41,613 nucleotides of DNA. Source: a virus. Both the position numbers and the translations under genes were made by a program. The stretch's first letter is position 1. Every line of letters begins with the position of its first letter. This document shows, piece by piece, positions 25,153 to 40,329 of this stretch. Below the pieces are notes generated by a model. It made no database searches, was not told the origin of the DNA, and was given only the letters and a program-made list of their open reading frames with translations. Where the stretch lies: IMG/VR virus record IMGVR_UViG_3300021407_000025, positions 1-41,613 of that record. One strand, written 5' to 3'.

Positions 25153-26669
25153 TGGGCGCCCCGGCCGACGATGAGGCGATCATCTACCTGCGGATGTCCG
25201 ACTTCCGCGACGAGGACCCCGGCACCTTCGAGGCCCGCGCCGAGGAGCTGCACGAGGTGGCCGACGAACTCGGGTTCCCGCGCCACGCGGTGCGGCTGGC
25301 GATCGAGAACGACCTGAGCAACGGCAGCGGGCCGCGCGGCGCGAGCGGGTACAAGACGCCTGACCGGGTGGCCACCGTGACCGGGCTCGTGACCTACCGG
25401 ACCCGCCGCCCGGTGTACCAGGGCGTGATGCTGGACCTCCAGGGCGGCGCGGCGGTCATGCTGCTGGTCTCGGATGAGAGCCGGATCAGCCGCGACTGGC
25501 GCGACGGCATGGACCTGCTCGACGCCGTTCGGGTGCGCGGCGCGTCGTGCGTGGCGCTCGATGACGAGGGCCGCCCCCGGTGGGTGCTGACGAAGGGCGG
25601 CACCCGCGCCGAGCAGCGCGCGTTCCTGGACCGGATCAACGACGCGCGCAAGTACAGCGACGACATCGCCACGAAGGTCCGCAGAGGGCGGCGCCGCTGG
25701 GCCGGGCGGTCCTGGCAGGGCGGGCGCCGCCCGTTCGGCTTCCAGATCGAGCAGGGCACCGAGGAGCACCACCGGAACCTGGTCGTGGACGACGCCGAGG
25801 CGGCTGAGCTGGTGCAGGCCGGTGACCGGCTGCTCGCCGGGACAAGCCTCCGCTGGCTCATCGCGGACCTGCGGAGCCGGGCCGTCCCGACCGTGACCGG
25901 CGCTGACTGGTCGACGCGCACGCTGCGCGACGCGCTGATGAAGCCAGCGACCGCCGGGCTCGCGCTGCGCGGCGGCGAGCTGGTGAGCGCGCCGTGGCCC
26001 GAGATCATCGACCGTGACAAGTGGGAGCAGATCAGGGCGCTGCTCACCGACCCGGCGCGTCGGACGAACCTCGGGCGCGGCAACGAGCCGCGCTGGCTGG
26101 TGAGCGTCTGGGCCACGTGCGGCGTCTGCGGCGGGCTGCTGCGGATCGGCGGGGCCGGGAGCGGCCGGGGACCGGCGTACGTCGGGCAGACCTGCGGCCA
26201 CGTCCGGCGCGACGCCGCGGCGGTGGACGCGCTGGTCGCTGACACCGCTATCGGCATCCTGGAGCGGCCCGAGGTCCTGGAGCGGCTGCGTCCCCCGGCC
26301 CGGCCGGGCGTGGACCTGGCCGCGCTGCGCGGCAAGCTGGCCAAGCTGGAGGGGCAGGCCGAGCGGCACCGCGCCGCGAACCTCGCCGGGCTGCTGGCCG
26401 ACGAGGACCTGTACCCGATGCTCGCCGGGCTCCGCGAGCAGCAGGCCGCGCTCCGCGAGCAGCTCGCCGCGTCCAGCGCCGAGCCCGACCAGTTCGCCGC
26501 GTTCCGCGAGGCACCGGCCCGCGTCGTGTGGGAGTCGCTGTCGGTGCCGCAGCGCCGCGCCGTGGTGCAACGGCTGTTCGAGAGCGTGGTGATCATGCAG
26601 ACGGGCCGCGGTAACCGTTTCGACCCGGAGAAGGTGGTCCCGACCCCGCGCGCTGACCTGGCCGAATAG
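25152..26669 (+). CDS. int: Large serine integrase (site-specific recombinase)
   Basis: The 505-residue protein would integrate and excise the phage genome. The catalytic motif IIYLRMSDFR at residues 10-19 places the nucleophile at S16, the 'YxRxS' pattern of large serine recombinases. The recombinase region (GTRAEQRAFLDRINDARKYS, RRGRRRWAGRSWQGGRRPFG, SLRWLIADLRSR, DALMKPATAGLALRGGELV) is followed by a zinc ribbon (CGVCGGLLRI with QTCGHVRRD) and a coiled-coil region (about residues 385-450, LRGKLAKLEGQAERHRA and REQQAALREQL), all in the expected order. A large serine integrase plus an HTH excisionase-like gene makes the phage temperate. Confidence 0.95.
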   Translation: MGAPADDEAIIYLRMSDFRDEDPGTFEARAEELHEVADELGFPRHAVRLAIENDLSNGSGPRGASGYKTPDRVATVTGLVTYRTRRPVYQGVMLDLQGGAAVMLLVSDESRISRDWRDGMDLLDAVRVRGASCVALDDEGRPRWVLTKGGTRAEQRAFLDRINDARKYSDDIATKVRRGRRRWAGRSWQGGRRPFGFQIEQGTEEHHRNLVVDDAEAAELVQAGDRLLAGTSLRWLIADLRSRAVPTVTGADWSTRTLRDALMKPATAGLALRGGELVSAPWPEIIDRDKWEQIRALLTDPARRTNLGRGNEPRWLVSVWATCGVCGGLLRIGGAGSGRGPAYVGQTCGHVRRDAAAVDALVADTAIGILERPEVLERLRPPARPGVDLAALRGKLAKLEGQAERHRAANLAGLLADEDLYPMLAGLREQQAALREQLAASSAEPDQFAAFREAPARVVWESLSVPQRRAVVQRLFESVVIMQTGRGNRFDPEKVVPTPRADLAE

Positions 26670-26674
26670 GGGGG

Positions 26675-26704
26675 TTGACAAGCCGTCCACCTGTGAGCTA
26701 GGAC
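26675..26704 (+). promoter_or_regulatory. Sigma-70-like promoter of the early operon
   Basis: TTGACA at 26675-26680 is a perfect -35 element. TAGGAC (26699-26704), 18 bases downstream, is a reasonable actinobacterial -10. It points right, just after the integrase stop, into the repeat array and the XRE gene. It is the clearest promoter in the window. Confidence 0.6.
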
Positions 26705-26715
26705 TGTCTGAGCAG

Positions 26716-26856
26716 GACCCGCAGGCGATCTGCCGCCCGACACGGGGGCGTAAAAACCGCGCCGCATGAACCGCCCGACACGGGGGCGTAAAAACCGCGC
26801 CGCACGACCCGCAGGCGATCTGCCGCCCGACACGGGGGCGTAAAAACCGCGCCGCA
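26716..26856 (+). repeat. Three-copy direct-repeat array in the early-operon leader
   Basis: A 34-base unit (beginning CCGCCCGACACGGGGGCG, then TAAAAACCGCGCCGCA) occurs at 26733-26766, 26771-26804 and 26823-26856. The first and third copies also share the preceding 17 bases GACCCGCAGGCGATCTG (26716-26732 and 26806-26822), so a 51-base unit is repeated with a 90-base period. Each unit holds CGCCC...GGGCG inverted arms and a run of five A; the longer unit also has GCAG-GCGAT-CTGC. It lies between a promoter and an XRE-type gene. Possible roles are repressor binding, an RNA element, an iteron-type site or a recombination site; no role is proven. Confidence 0.85.
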
Positions 26857-26890
26857 CGGCCCGTCCACCCGGCGCGGCTTGCCTCTCTAG

Positions 26891-26918
26891 CCCGCCGGAC
26901 CCCGCTGCGTCCGCCGGG
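26891..26918 (+). promoter_or_regulatory. Hairpin over the ribosome site of the XRE gene
   Basis: CCCGCCGGAC (26891-26900) is nearly complementary to GTCCGCCGGG (26909-26918), with one mismatched pair. The right arm covers the GGGAG (26916-26920) that would serve the TTG start at 26928. This may limit translation of the regulator. RNA folding would be needed to judge its stability. Confidence 0.4.
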
Positions 26919-26927
26919 AGCCCCCCC

Positions 26928-27182
26928 TTGCCTAGTACCACCACCTCGGGCGGCGACGTGTCTGCCGCGCGTCTCTACGACCATGAGCTGCTCCGCGCGT
27001 GGCGCGAGCAGGCCGGGCTCAGCCGTGAACGGGTCGGCGTCGATCTGAGCATGGGCGCCTCCTGGCTCGCCCTCCTCGAACAGGGCGGGCCGGGCCGCAC
27101 GCCGAGCCTTGCCCTGCTGATCCGCCTCGCCCGCTACTACGGCCACGAGCCCGGCGAGCTGCTCGCCCCGAGGCCGCAGTGA
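26928..27182 (+). CDS. XRE-family helix-turn-helix regulator
   Basis: The 84-residue protein is an XRE/Cro-CI-type DNA-binding protein: LLRAWREQAGLSRERVGVDL then WLALLEQGGPGRTPSLALLI and RLARYYGHEPGELL. This matches the five-helix XRE fold, in which the first helix is followed by the HTH. The start is uncertain: TTG 26928 has a GGGAG ribosome site, while GTG 26958 gives a shorter protein beginning at SAARLYDHE. It is the likely immunity regulator or an early regulator; the repeats and promoter upstream are candidate targets. Confidence 0.75.
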   Translation: MPSTTTSGGDVSAARLYDHELLRAWREQAGLSRERVGVDLSMGASWLALLEQGGPGRTPSLALLIRLARYYGHEPGELLAPRPQ

Positions 27183-27382
27183 CGACCGCGGCCGAGGACC
27201 GCGCCGCGGCCAGGGCCGCCTATATCCGCCGAATTGTGGCCTCCGTCCCAAAACTGGGGCCGCGTACCCTTTGCGACCTGGATCGACTTCTTAACGCGCA
27301 TAGGTCTGTTAGCGCGGCTAAGGGCGACGTACAGTCGAAAGTCGTGGGGGTAAACGCCGGGCGGCGCCACGATGACTGTTAA
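27179..27382 (+). CDS. Hypothetical small protein
   Basis: The 67-residue protein starts at GTG 27179 (GTGA overlap). It is basic and helical at the N-terminus (EDRAAARAAYIRRIVASVPK, CDLDRLLNAHR); the second half looks less typical. It overlaps the exonuclease gene by 11 bases. No family recognised; part of it may not be coding. Confidence 0.45.
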   Translation: MTTAAEDRAAARAAYIRRIVASVPKLGPRTLCDLDRLLNAHRSVSAAKGDVQSKVVGVNAGRRHDDC

Positions 27383-28205
27383 GCGGCGCCGCGTCGGCAA
27401 GAGCGGGCACGGGTACACGGTTGACGGCGAGAAGGTTCCCGGCGTCACCCGTATTCTGGACCTCCTACCCAAGGACGCCCTGATCAAGTGGGCGGCCGAG
27501 TCGACCGGCAAGTACGCCATCAACAACTGGGAGTCGCTGTCGGCGCTGCCCCCCGCTGACCGGCTTGACCTGCTGTTCGGCGCCCGGTTCGAGAAGTCCG
27601 AGCCCGCCGCCAAGCGCGGCACGGAGGTCCACCGGCTCGCTGAGCCCGCGATCCGCGGCGAGGCGATCAACATGGGCGCCGTGCCGGTGGAGCTGCGCGG
27701 CTACGTCGAGGCGTACCTGGACTTCTGCGACACGATCGACCCGAAGCCGCTGGAGAACGGCACCGAGCTGGTCGTGGCGAACCGGACGCATCGCTACTGC
27801 GGCACCGCCGACCTCGTGGCCGACCTGCCCGCGCTGAGCTACGACGGCGAGATCATCCCGGCGTGCCGCTGGCTCCTGGACCTGAAGACCGGCCCCAAGA
27901 GCGTCGTGTACCCCGAGTCGGCGCTCCAGGCGTGCGCGTACGAGCACTGTGAGGTGTTCGTGGACCCCGACGAGCCCGACGATGAGCGCAAGGTCGAATG
28001 GCTCCAGATCGAGCGGTGCGGCGTCGTCCACATCGGCCCGACCGACTGGGCGCTGCACCCGCTCGACACCGGCCCCGAGGTGTGGGAGTTCTTCCTGCAC
28101 CTGCGGTGGCTCTACGACCACATGGAGATGAAGAACTCAAAGCCGGTCCTGCCCGGCTATTGGGTCGGCGGGACCGCCAGCGTGGCGGAACCCGCCCTCG
28201 CCTAG
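27372..28205 (+). CDS. RecB/Cas4-like PD-(D/E)XK exonuclease
   Basis: The 277-residue protein has the features of phage recombination exonucleases with a RecB/Cas4-like core: RGTEVHRLAE (about 82-91), GTADLVA (about 144-150, acidic residue D147), WLLDLKTG (about 167-174, the D-x-K motif), and ESALQACAYEHCEVF (about 182-196, the 'Q..aY' motif). It would resect DNA ends 5' to 3' to make single strands for the annealing protein encoded 160 bases downstream. The pair resembles other phage exonuclease/RecT systems. Confidence 0.85.
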   Translation: MTVKRRRVGKSGHGYTVDGEKVPGVTRILDLLPKDALIKWAAESTGKYAINNWESLSALPPADRLDLLFGARFEKSEPAAKRGTEVHRLAEPAIRGEAINMGAVPVELRGYVEAYLDFCDTIDPKPLENGTELVVANRTHRYCGTADLVADLPALSYDGEIIPACRWLLDLKTGPKSVVYPESALQACAYEHCEVFVDPDEPDDERKVEWLQIERCGVVHIGPTDWALHPLDTGPEVWEFFLHLRWLYDHMEMKNSKPVLPGYWVGGTASVAEPALA

Positions 28206-28284: not shown

Positions 28285-28368
28285 GTGAGATCAAGGGTAA
28301 CCGACATCGGACAAACGGTGCGGACGCCACGTGGAGACCGTGTGGAATTCATGTGGAGATCCGGCTGA
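28285..28368 (+). CDS. 27-residue leader peptide before the RecT-like gene
   Basis: GTG 28285 is preceded by AAAGGAG at good spacing and opens a 27-codon frame (VRSRVTDIGQTVRTPRGDRV then EFMWRSG) whose TGA overlaps the next ATG (TGATG at 28366-28370). The strong ribosome site and the overlap suggest that it is translated and couples expression of the RecT-like protein. Basic and short; no family recognised. Confidence 0.5.
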   Translation: MRSRVTDIGQTVRTPRGDRVEFMWRSG

Positions 28369-29450
28369 TGGCGGCGCGGGACCGCGGCAACGAGCTGTCG
28401 CTGCGCGCGTGGGCGGCTGAGGCCGAGTCGGCGGCGTTCATCGCGAAGTCGATCGCGCACACCGATTTCGTGCCCGAGCAGCTCAGGCGGTACACGAACC
28501 CGCTGGAGCGCGACCCGTCGAAGCGGATACTCGACTACGAGGCGACGGTGCAGACCGTCGCCGCGGTGCTGCTCGCAGGGCAGGAGCTAGGGCTTCAGCC
28601 GATGGCCAGCCTGCGGACGTTCACCATCATCCGGGGCACGGTGGCGATGTACGCGCTGGCGGCCCGCGCGCTGCTGCTCCAGCACGGGCATGACGTGGTG
28701 GTGGTCGAGTCGACTGACCAGCGCGCGGTCGTGCGCGGGCGGCGGGCCGGGACCGACCATTGGCAGCAAGCCGAATGGAACCTGGAGCGGGCCAAGACCG
28801 CGGGGCTGTTCCCCGGCCCCGAGCGGGGCAACTGGCGGACGCAGACGAAGGCGATGCTTGTCGCCCGCGCGACCGCTGAGGCGTCCCGCTGGGTCGCGGC
28901 CGATGCGCTGCTCGGCCTGCCGCCGCTGGTGGAGGAGCTGGACGACGACGGCCAGGCGCCGCTCGCGATCGAGAGCACCGCCACCGCGACCGCGATCGAG
29001 GGCGACGGGCAGCCCGAGCCCGCCGCGGGCACCCGCCAGCGGAAGGCCCCGGTGCGGCGGGCCGCGCTGCCCTCGGCGCCGCCGCCGCCGGAAACTCCCG
29101 GCCCGCCGGTCCCGGCGCAGCGCACCGCCGAGGTCCCCGAGGAGCCCCGCCCCTCCGGGCCGAAGCCGACCTCAACGCAGATGGCCAAGCTCCACGCGAA
29201 CCTCCGCGACGTGGGCATAACCGACCCCGCGGAGGGGCTGGCGCTCGTGTCCGGGTGGGCGGGCCGCACCGTCGCCAAGACCGGCGACCTGACCCGCGGC
29301 GAGATGAGCGTGGTGCTAGAGCGGCTCGACGCGCTGATGGCGCTCAGGGCCAAGCACCAGGCCGAGGCCGACGCCCAGGGCGAGGTGGCGGCGCAGGACG
29401 CGGAGGAGCACCCGCCGCCGCCGCCCGAGGGGAACGGTGACCCGCCGTGA
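28368..29450 (+). CDS. RecT-like single-strand annealing protein
   Basis: The 360-residue protein has a RecT-type core: AESAAFIAKSIAHTDFVPEQ, ATVQTVAAVLLAGQELGLQP, ASLRTFTIIRGTVAMYALAA, AEWNLERAKTAGLFPGPERG, WRTQTKAMLVARATAEASRW with DALLGLPPLVEEL. These are the segments that in RecT/Bet-like annealases bind and pair complementary single strands. The C-terminal third is Pro/Ala/Glu-rich, with a helical end (QMAKLHANLRDVGITDPAEG). I chose ATG 28368 (TGATG overlap); GTG 28353 is an in-frame alternative. Confidence 0.85.
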   Translation: MAARDRGNELSLRAWAAEAESAAFIAKSIAHTDFVPEQLRRYTNPLERDPSKRILDYEATVQTVAAVLLAGQELGLQPMASLRTFTIIRGTVAMYALAARALLLQHGHDVVVVESTDQRAVVRGRRAGTDHWQQAEWNLERAKTAGLFPGPERGNWRTQTKAMLVARATAEASRWVAADALLGLPPLVEELDDDGQAPLAIESTATATAIEGDGQPEPAAGTRQRKAPVRRAALPSAPPPPETPGPPVPAQRTAEVPEEPRPSGPKPTSTQMAKLHANLRDVGITDPAEGLALVSGWAGRTVAKTGDLTRGEMSVVLERLDALMALRAKHQAEADAQGEVAAQDAEEHPPPPPEGNGDPP

Positions 29451-37582: not shown

Positions 37583-38275
37583 ATGGCGTCCATCCCTCCC
37601 GCGCCGCACTCCCCGCGGCCTGGTTACTGCCACTACGACGACGCCGCCGCGAGCTACGACGGGCATTTCACCCGGCCGGTCGATGAGTGGGAAGACGCGC
37701 GGCTGGCCGAGCTGCTGCGGCCGGTGGTCGACGGCCGGATCGTGCTGGACCTCGGCTGCGGCACGGGCTGGGTCGCTGACCACCTGGAGCCCCGCGATTA
37801 CACGGGCGTCGACTGCTCGGGGCCGATGCTCGCGGAGCTGGCGAGCAAGCACCCGGCCGCCCGCACCGTCAAGGCCGAGGTCGGCGCCGAGGCGTGGGTC
37901 CGGGCGCTGCCGTACCGCCGCTACCCGGTGATCACCGCGACGTGGAGCCTGGAGTACCTCGGCGACCTCGACATCCTGCTGTCGGTCTGCGCGCGGCTCT
38001 GCGTGCCCGGCGGGGTGCTGGCGCTGCACGGCTCGCTCCCCCGCGGCCACCACCGCGCCCACTTCTCGGTGAGGGCGGCGCCGTACCGGCCGCTGAGCCC
38101 TCGGCTGGTGAGGCGGGCGTCTGACCGGGCGCTGCTGCCCCGCCCGCGGGCCGCCGGGACCGGGGCGCTTCCCGACACCTGGACCCGGCTCGGGCACCGC
38201 GCGTGGACCGCGGCGCTCGCCGCCCCGGCCGGGCGGCACTACGCGGCGCTGTGGACCTGGCGGCTCCCGTCATGA
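37583..38275 (+). CDS. Class I SAM-dependent methyltransferase
   Basis: The 230-residue enzyme has motif I VLDLGCGTGW (about residues 54-63), the acidic residue after beta2 in YTGVDCS (about 74-80), and a beta4 region with ITATWSLEYLGDLDILLSVC. It uses S-adenosylmethionine. The fold resembles small-molecule/lipid-type methyltransferases more than DNA methylases, because no DPPY or PCQ motif is seen. The target is unknown. ATG 37583 follows a -10 directly, so the mRNA may be leaderless. It ends in an ATGA overlap with the PP-loop gene, so the two are coupled. Confidence 0.85.
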   Translation: MASIPPAPHSPRPGYCHYDDAAASYDGHFTRPVDEWEDARLAELLRPVVDGRIVLDLGCGTGWVADHLEPRDYTGVDCSGPMLAELASKHPAARTVKAEVGAEAWVRALPYRRYPVITATWSLEYLGDLDILLSVCARLCVPGGVLALHGSLPRGHHRAHFSVRAAPYRPLSPRLVRRASDRALLPRPRAAGTGALPDTWTRLGHRAWTAALAAPAGRHYAALWTWRLPS

Positions 38276-39408
38276 CCAAGGCGATGCTCGGGATGACCGT
38301 CTTCGACGCGGCGGTTGCCCGGCTCCGCGAGCAGTACGAGCAGGGGCACCGCATCGTGGTCTCGGCGTCCGGCGGGAAAGACTCGACGTGCTGCGTGGAG
38401 ACCGCGATCATCGCCGCGACGCAGGCCGGGCGGCTGCCGGTGGAGGTGGTGACCCGCGAGGAGGAGATCATCCCGCCGGGTACCCGCGAGTACCTGATGG
38501 CGCTCCGCGAGCGGCCCGAGGTCGATCTGCACTGGCTGGTGGCGCACCAGCCGTCGATCAACGCTTTCGACCGGGAGCACCCGTTCTGGTGGATCATGGA
38601 CCCGCAGCTCGACCCCGACCTGTGGGTGGTGCAGCCGCCGCCGTACGCCGAGCACATCGCCGAGTACAACATCGAGGCGATGACCATCCCGGCGCGGTTC
38701 CCGCCGCCGCCGGGCAAGGAGCTGCTCGCCGTCGTCGGGCTGCGGGTGCAGGAGTCCCGCGGGCGGCTGTTCGGCCTCTACAGCTCGGGCGGCTACCTCA
38801 CGAAGCCGAACCCGTGGGGGGTGCGGAACCTGCGGCCGGTCTACGACTGGCTGGACTCCGACGTGTGGCGCGCGATCGACATCAACGGCTGGGCGTACAA
38901 CGACGCCTACGACGTGCTCAACCGGCTCGGGGTGCCGCGGAGCCAGCTCAGGATCAGCCCGCCGACGATGAGCAGCGGATCGGCTGACGTGCTGCGGCTC
39001 ATCGCGTCGGCGTGGCCGACCTGGTGGGACCGGGTGGTGCGGCGGCTGCCCTCGGTGCGGACCTTCGCGCAGTACGGCAAGCGGGCCGTCTCCGCGCAGC
39101 GCGGCCCCGGCGAGACGTGGGAGGAGTGCTTCAAGCGCACGTGCATCCTCAAGGCGCCCGCCTGGATCGCCGAGCGCGCCGAGCTTCAGATGAACCGCTC
39201 GGTCTCCGGGCACGCCGCGCACTCCACGACCCCGTTCCCCGATGTCGGCATGTGCCAGGTCTGCGGGTCGGGGCTCGGCTCCTGGAAGGAGCTGGCCAAG
39301 GCGCTGTACCTCGGCGACCCGTTCGCTGTCAAGTGCCGGTCACTGTCCTACGTCGAGCCGTCGTACTTCCGCCCCGGCGAGCCCCGCTGGGACGGCAAAC
39401 CCGGATAG
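38272..39408 (+). CDS. PAPS-reductase-like PP-loop ATPase (IbrA-like)
   Basis: The 378-residue protein has the PP-loop SGGKDS at residues 33-38 after RIVVSA, then a PAPS-reductase/ATP-pyrophosphatase core (VEVVTREEEIIPPGTREYLM, HPFWWIMDPQLDPDLWVVQP, VVGLRVQESRGRLFGLYSSG, RPVYDWLDSDVWRAIDINGW). The C-terminal half has C pairs (FKRTCILKAP, GMCQVCGSGL) and helical content like IbrA/DUF3440-type proteins rather than classical CysH. Such enzymes activate substrates by adenylation. Its partner is the ParB-fold gene 100 bases downstream. Sulfur transfer to nucleic acid is possible but unproven. Confidence 0.8.
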   Translation: MTKAMLGMTVFDAAVARLREQYEQGHRIVVSASGGKDSTCCVETAIIAATQAGRLPVEVVTREEEIIPPGTREYLMALRERPEVDLHWLVAHQPSINAFDREHPFWWIMDPQLDPDLWVVQPPPYAEHIAEYNIEAMTIPARFPPPPGKELLAVVGLRVQESRGRLFGLYSSGGYLTKPNPWGVRNLRPVYDWLDSDVWRAIDINGWAYNDAYDVLNRLGVPRSQLRISPPTMSSGSADVLRLIASAWPTWWDRVVRRLPSVRTFAQYGKRAVSAQRGPGETWEECFKRTCILKAPAWIAERAELQMNRSVSGHAAHSTTPFPDVGMCQVCGSGLGSWKELAKALYLGDPFAVKCRSLSYVEPSYFRPGEPRWDGKPG

Positions 39409-39510: not shown

Positions 39511-40329
39511 ATGCCCCCGCGGCACCGCAAGGGCCAGGCCGAGATCGAGAAGCTGAACGCGCGGCTGGAGCGGCTCACCATCGAGTACGTCTCGGCGGCC
39601 GAGCTGACCCCGAACGACTACAACCCGAACCGCCAGAACGAGCACGAGTTCACGCTGCTGAAGTCGTCCATCCTGGAGGACGGCTTCACCGACCCCGTGA
39701 AGGTGGTCGAGCGGGACGGCGGGCAGGTCGTCATCGTGGACGGCGAGCACCGCTGGCGGGCGGTGCGCGAGCTGGCCGAGGAGGGCAAGCTGCCCGACGA
39801 CACGCTGGCGATCGTCAAGCTGCCGATGGGCGAGGCGCAGGCCAAGATCGCCACGCTGCGGCATAACCGGGCGCGCGGCACCGAGGACATCGGGCTGGCG
39901 ACCGACGTGCTCCGCGACCTGGAGCAGCTCGGCGCCCTGGACTGGGCGGCCGACTCCCTGGACCTGTCCGACGTGGAGCTTCAGCGGCTCCTCGATGACA
40001 TCCCGGCCGCGGAGGCGCTGGCGGGCGAGGAGTTCAGCGAGGCGTGGGCGCCGGGCTCGCCGCAGGAAGGCGACGGGAGCGGCCCGGTCCAGGTGTCCGG
40101 CACCGCCGCCGGGGTGAACGCCGACCGGGAGCGGGAGCGGCGCATCGCGGCGGCCACCACCGAGGCCGAGCGGCAGGCGGCCCGCAACGACCGCAACGTG
40201 TACCGGCTGCACCTGACGTTCGCCGACGCCGAGGCCGACGTGGTCAAGGCCGCGCTCGGCGACAAGCCCGCCGACACGATCCTGCGGTGGGCGCGCGAGC
40301 GGGCCGAGGTCGGCGCCGATGCCGGGTAG
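39511..40329 (+). CDS. ParB/sulfiredoxin-fold protein (IbrB-like)
   Basis: The 272-residue protein has an N-terminal ParB/Srx-type domain: IEYVSAAELTPNDYNPNRQN (box 1), SSILEDGFTDPVKVVERD (box 2) and the signature VIVDGEHRWRAV (about residues 74-85). After KLPMGEAQAKIATLRHNRAR it has acidic and helical regions and a basic C-terminal part (AERQAARNDRNVYRLHLTFA). IbrB-like proteins pair with IbrA-like PP-loop ATPases next to them, as here. It could act as a nuclease, a CTP-dependent switch or a sulfur-chemistry partner; the sequence alone does not decide. Confidence 0.8.
   Translation: MPPRHRKGQAEIEKLNARLERLTIEYVSAAELTPNDYNPNRQNEHEFTLLKSSILEDGFTDPVKVVERDGGQVVIVDGEHRWRAVRELAEEGKLPDDTLAIVKLPMGEAQAKIATLRHNRARGTEDIGLATDVLRDLEQLGALDWAADSLDLSDVELQRLLDDIPAAEALAGEEFSEAWAPGSPQEGDGSGPVQVSGTAAGVNADRERERRIAAATTEAERQAARNDRNVYRLHLTFADAEADVVKAALGDKPADTILRWARERAEVGADAG

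Follow-up and report, generated by a model that had tools for sequence, protein, structure and literature searches.

What are three exact copies of a 34-nt sequence doing between the integrase gene and the early operon of a phage, and do they act as DNA or as RNA? The question is raised by the virus record IMGVR_UViG_3300021407_000025, whose full 41,613 nt were analysed here and are called the window.

The repeat array and the early operon of the window

The initial annotation had described three 34-base copies with a 51-base long form and a 90-base period, placed between the integrase and an XRE gene, and this description is borne out by the exact coordinates. The 34-mer (CCGCCCGACACGGGGGCGTAAAAACCGCGCCGCA) occurs three times, with gaps of 4 nt and then 18 nt between the copies; shuffled sequences are expected to contain 0 such repeats, and the window holds no copy beyond the three. 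Copies 1 and 3 carry a 17-nt extension that is absent from copy 2, the long form of 51 nt being the 34-mer with this extension, repeated at a period of 90 nt. The CGCCC/GGGCG arms and the run of five A noticed in the units are present. The serine integrase ends at 26669, upstream of a promoter-like element, and the features that follow are these:

26675-26704, + strand: promoter-like element TTGACA-N18-TAGGAC, recognised from sequence (TTGACA at 26675-26680, TAGGAC at 26699-26704, spacer of 18 nt); predicted transcription start at about 26711
26716-26732, + strand: 17-nt extension of copy 1 (GACCCGCAGGCGATCTG), with a small GCAG/CTGC hairpin
26733-26766, + strand: unit 1, with stem 1 (S1) CGCCC/GGGCG, loop GACACGG, linker TAAAAA and tail CCGCG
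26771-26804, + strand: unit 2, same sequence as unit 1, without the extension
26806-26822, + strand: 17-nt extension of copy 3
26823-26856, + strand: unit 3, same sequence as unit 1
26857-26927, + strand: structured spacer, with a GC-rich hairpin beside the ribosome binding site GGGAG
26928-27182, + strand: 84-aa XRE/HTH_31 protein, first gene of the operon (TTG start; PF13560, E = 5e-12)
27372-28205, + strand: RecE/Cas4-like exonuclease (phrog_298; synteny in 8/8 loci)
28353-29450, + strand: RecT-like annealing protein (phrog_4171)

The promoter had been proposed from its TTGACA box. It is visible in the sequence and is not called by a strict sigma-70 consensus scan of the window, but an equivalent element (TTGAC-N-N17/18-TA) lies at the matching position in 11 of 12 XRE loci, the exception being L004 (TCGAAT). 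The predicted transcription start and the downstream operon agree with the suggestion that the array belongs to the leader of the early operon. No T-tailed intrinsic terminator was found between the array and the XRE gene on the + strand of the window, a search that actinobacterial terminators without T-tails would escape. Sequestration of the ribosome binding site is not convincing as a mechanism: pairing there does not clearly exceed background and is not significant in most loci.

Several known classes of repeat do not fit. That the copies are 4 and 18 nt apart had already been taken to argue against a CRISPR array, and rightly so, as the longer gap repeats flanking sequence and regular repeats with unique spacers of similar length are lacking. 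An attachment site had been thought odd with three identical copies; the attP of a serine integrase is expected to be a single crossover site near the integrase gene, and two related loci (L014 and L021) have the array without an integrase directly upstream. The coding of a repeated peptide is rejected because a repeat spaced by 38 and 52 nt does not stay in frame. Rfam gives no match at the gathering score in the window or in the leaders of its relatives. On the minus strand, positions 26711-26775 give a sub-threshold match to a CPEB3/HDV-like ribozyme (17.9 bits, where the gathering score is 35), probably by chance. Elsewhere in the window, the right arm encodes a PAPS reductase-like protein (38203-39408) and a ParB-like protein (39511-40329), possibly genes for DNA modification or auxiliary functions.

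Related loci and the architecture of the units

A search of other phages and host genomes for the 34-mer had been suggested. Among phages, its sequence was not recovered elsewhere (the 20-nt core is in no IMG/VR contig, and no cultured phage matches the repeat region at the DNA level), but its architecture was. Searching with the XRE protein gave seven uncultured phage contigs (L004, L005, L011, L014, L019, L020 and L021) whose XRE proteins are 45-57% identical to that of the window; cultured phages yielded only weak generic HTH matches and no such relative. The window and these seven share the gene order promoter, array or leader, XRE gene, exonuclease and RecT, and units of other sequence occupy the same place in the relatives' leaders. 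In each of the eight, 18-62 nt separate the array from the predicted -10 box on its upstream side, and 34-134 nt from the XRE start codon on its downstream side. The gene upstream of the promoter is variable: it is of recombinase/integrase type in most loci and a different one, with NUDIX-like sequence, in L014 and L021. The leader therefore travels with the XRE operon and not with the integrase.

An alignment scan with the exonuclease returned 79 loci, among them four further, more distant XRE genes. One of these (L064) is preceded by two pseudoknot-like units with long linkers, and the other three (L061, L063 and L082) have no clear array, so that the XRE gene can do without one. Exonuclease loci lacking this XRE gene have no array, and the cultured relatives of the exonuclease (Frokostdame, Sleepyhead, prophiT36-2a, Samy and Attoomi) show other layouts; judging from the exonuclease relatives, the hosts are presumably actinobacteria. 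Three other HTH proteins, from Streptomyces plasmids (L023, L024) and from a Bipolaricaulota (L022), were discarded as unrelated. A scan of IMG/VR for the DNA pattern of tandem units recovered L005 and L011 together with chance matches. It also brought up a different hairpin array, set aside here, between tail/baseplate genes of P2-like phage contigs (in reverse-complement coordinates, L028:2960-3140, L033:2795-2915 and L040:2955-3065), which consists of about 4-6 tandem copies of 31-32-nt hairpin units (CGCCCGGCTTCGGGGGCGATAAAAAGCCTAACG) with weak loop-tail pairing. Two hairpins each followed by GTTAAA (CGTCC..GGACGTTAAAG) were seen directly 5' of a gene start in lower-GC viral contigs (L037:395-450; L052, unit strand 2767-2822) and may be due to chance.

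In all eight loci the unit runs from a GC hairpin (S1) through an A-rich linker to a tail that is complementary to the loop of that hairpin (S2). H-type pseudoknots follow this scheme: S1, L1, S2, S1', an A-rich L3 and S2'. Examples are CGACC-GC-CGGAT-GGTCG-TTAAAG-ATCCG in L005, CGTCC-AA-CGCGG-AT-GGACG-TTAAAGCC-CCGCG in L020, GCGC-A-CAGGC-G-GCGT-GACGATAAAAACA-GCCTG in L004 and, in the more distant L064, GCGCC-CG-CCAGG-GGCGC-GATGACGTGGACTTC-CCTGG. The architecture is kept across the family and the unit sequence is not: in some phages all units agree exactly or almost so, between phages they diverge fast, and both S1 and S2 vary by compensatory changes. Outside the units proper, a GCAGGCG hairpin of L019 resembles the small hairpin in the 17-nt extension of the window. 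The array appears to belong to a family of folded RNA units that stand in tandem at the place where an early transcript of soil actinobacterial phages begins.

Base pairing within the units

The units were searched for objectively as a Watson-Crick stem of at least 4 bp with a loop of 4-10 nt, followed within 2 nt by AAA, S2 being ignored. This criterion, strict enough to miss L004 and L019 entirely, picks out 18 units in the 2,082 nt of leader sequence. The remaining 184,284 nt of these loci, which serve as background, contain 57, so that the densities are 8.6 and 0.31 per kb and the enrichment in the leaders is 28-fold; the antisense strand of the leaders has 0. Among 14 distinct units, with the three identical copies of the window counted once, loop-tail pairing beats 1000/1000 tail shuffles as well as 1000/1000 loop shuffles and surpasses that of background hairpins (Mann-Whitney p = 1.1e-4). 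A scan for pseudoknots with an A-rich L3, whose units, like those of the objective search, were not chosen by eye, counts 3 in the window, where random stretches average 0.05 (maximum 1). In L004 (3), L005 (4), L014 (2), L020 (2) and L021 (3) the count is higher than in any of 60 random stretches taken from that contig; the single one of L011 and that of L019 are within background. For units picked by eye, permuting the tails among 21 of them gives p = 0.0001, and 18 distinct ones have canonical pairs at 80/80 positions of S1 and 81/84 of S2. These pairs were counted from the hand annotation, as the MAFFT alignment of the units is not structure-aware. Compensatory changes affect most positions, S1 position 3 showing four pair types and S2 positions several, and re-dealing the pairing partners among the 18 units reached the observed level in 0/5000 trials. 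Taken as a family, the units are probably RNA pseudoknots.

The unit of the window is a less clear case. Its S2 consists either of CGG/CCG (3 bp) or of the tail CCGCG with the loop part CACGG, that is 4/5 pairs with an A.C mismatch, and a nested alternative (CCCG-ACA-CGGG with GGCGU-GCGCC) is predicted at -12.5 kcal/mol, about as good as the pseudoknot. With this competitor, the pseudoknot of the window unit rests on the family evidence. Folding of the leader RNA, which the initial annotation had proposed, found nested structure in the window leader no better than in shuffles, while the family covariation of S1 and S2 spoke for structure; the lack of a nested signal is expected for pseudoknots, yet no nested structure stands out either. 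One could suppose that only the S1 hairpins matter, as simple stem-loop sites for a protein, the S2 of the window being incidental. The short S2 and the equally stable nested fold would suit this reading, but S2 covaries in the family, which makes it improbable.

Possible functions of the array

Operators for the XRE protein, an RNA switch, an iteron-type site and a decoy had all been considered for these repeats. The RNA options gain from the covariation in eight phages and from the position on the sense strand just past the predicted start, operators lose ground, and the iteron option finds no support. As operators, the three CGCCC-N7-GGGCG palindromes, placed downstream of the promoter, would be DNA sites at which the XRE protein or some other repressor binds. 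Inverted repeats do adjoin the XRE gene, and three sites are found in many repressor regions. The identical copies of the window share palindromes of fixed spacing, but in L005, L011, L020 and L021 the arms vary within one locus in both sequence and spacing (about 5-10 nt), which a rigid dimer site should not tolerate. Operators would also leave the S2 complementarity unexplained, as well as the one-sided A-rich linker, always in sense orientation, and no further sites above chance exist in the window. Moreover, perfect 12- and 14-bp inverted repeats of differing sequence lie over the -10 box of the early promoter in L011 (2694-2721) and L020 (218-253). These are likely, from their sequence, to be repressor operators of different specificity; as they stand where a repressor would act, the array need not be an operator. 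Operators for the XRE protein are therefore an unlikely identity of the array, and DNA operators for whichever repressor have little probability.

The reading that we prefer is that of cis control by an array-bound protein. Three tandem RNA units would open the early transcript at its very 5' end, each folded as an H-type pseudoknot in which the TAAAAA linker crosses stem 1 (CGCCC/GGGCG) and stem 2 joins loop and tail. Together they would probably form a multivalent leader which binds a protein, or contacts RNA polymerase or the ribosome, and which would thereby control the XRE-recE-recT operon in cis. The repeats, their position, the family-wide covariation of S1 and S2, the strand bias and the linkage to the XRE gene were computed here; that the RNA is made, takes this fold in the window, is bound by a protein and acts in cis is what we infer. 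For the explanation as a whole we consider the chances evenly balanced, and that cis control is the main role of the array is given slightly less credence.

The main rival is a small trans-acting RNA, a decoy or antitoxin-like molecule titrating a host protein such as a type III ToxN-like RNase, with the XRE gene merely downstream. The layout is that of type III antitoxins, where a promoter precedes pseudoknot repeats in tandem, some 35 nt each, and these are followed by a hairpin and a gene. Such repeats are known to be carried by a phage and expanded in number, and fast divergence between phages with near-identity within some of them recalls an arms race. Yet all eight phages have the array at the same early XRE operon, there is no known host toxin, and a search for the ToxN family (PF13958) was silent in the nine phage records (0/9), as was its control. 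A trans-acting decoy is therefore rather unlikely, if a good deal less so than operators. Far less probable is a block to exonucleases, in which tandem pseudoknots at the 5' end, by analogy with xrRNAs, would shield the early mRNA from the host RNase J; their tandem arrangement and their position 18-62 nt past the predicted -10 box would fit, but the ring topology of known xrRNAs is not visible in units this short.

To our knowledge, tandem pseudoknot arrays are mainly known as type III antitoxins and their phage mimics, and few structured RNAs are known from actinophages; the part of the literature that was covered holds no earlier description of such phage pseudoknot arrays. A conserved array ahead of a phage regulator would imply another use for the architecture, probably early gene control; alternatively, antitoxin-like RNAs would be a standard part of some actinophage early operons. 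We tentatively raise the possibility of a new class of phage RNA, tandem H-type pseudoknots that head actinophage early operons, would bind a phage or host protein and could act in the lytic/lysogenic switch or in the neutralisation of a host RNase and be tuned by copy number. The covariation supplies base pairs that can be tested directly.

Comparison with known systems

Single elements of the array have parallels among regulatory RNAs. The autoregulatory leader of T4 gene 32 contains an H-type pseudoknot, which like the array lies at the 5' end of a phage replication mRNA, but it is single-copy, precedes a different gene and has an unrelated sequence. The put antitermination RNAs of HK022 are likewise structured and occupy the 5' end of early phage transcripts; they are stem-loops of conserved sequence, whereas the units described here are pseudoknots without one. 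The preQ1-I riboswitch shares the small H-type pseudoknot with an A-rich linker, and differs from the array, which occurs in at least three copies, has no Rfam match and shows no conserved ligand pocket.

The closest likeness is to type III antitoxins, in which a promoter is followed by tandem pseudoknots, a terminator and a gene (PMC5086642). ToxI, CptI, TenpI and the antiQ of AbiQ resemble the array in that a promoter is followed by tandem repeats, each about 35-45 nt long and with the order of an H-type pseudoknot, and then by a hairpin and a single gene; they also resemble it in a sequence that diverges fast while the fold is retained. In the window, a single promoter is followed by tandem repeats within the range of about 34-45 nt; a fold of each repeat as an H-type pseudoknot finds support in the covariation of the family and weak support in the window's own sequence. 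The array differs in preceding an XRE regulator (PF13560) of a recombination operon instead of a ToxN-fold endoribonuclease, in the absence of a T-tailed terminator on the + strand, in having mostly 3-5 units and in belonging to a phage early region. A classical type III toxin-antitoxin locus is rejected, the downstream gene not being a toxin. In phage PhiTE, pseudo-ToxI repeats, when expanded, allow escape from ToxIN (PMC3475682). Both are phage-borne tandem repeats able to form pseudoknots, and the copy number of those of PhiTE can expand; the PhiTE repeats, however, resemble the sequence of one known ToxI and lie in another intergenic place, while the array resembles no known antitoxin and keeps a conserved position in front of the XRE operon.
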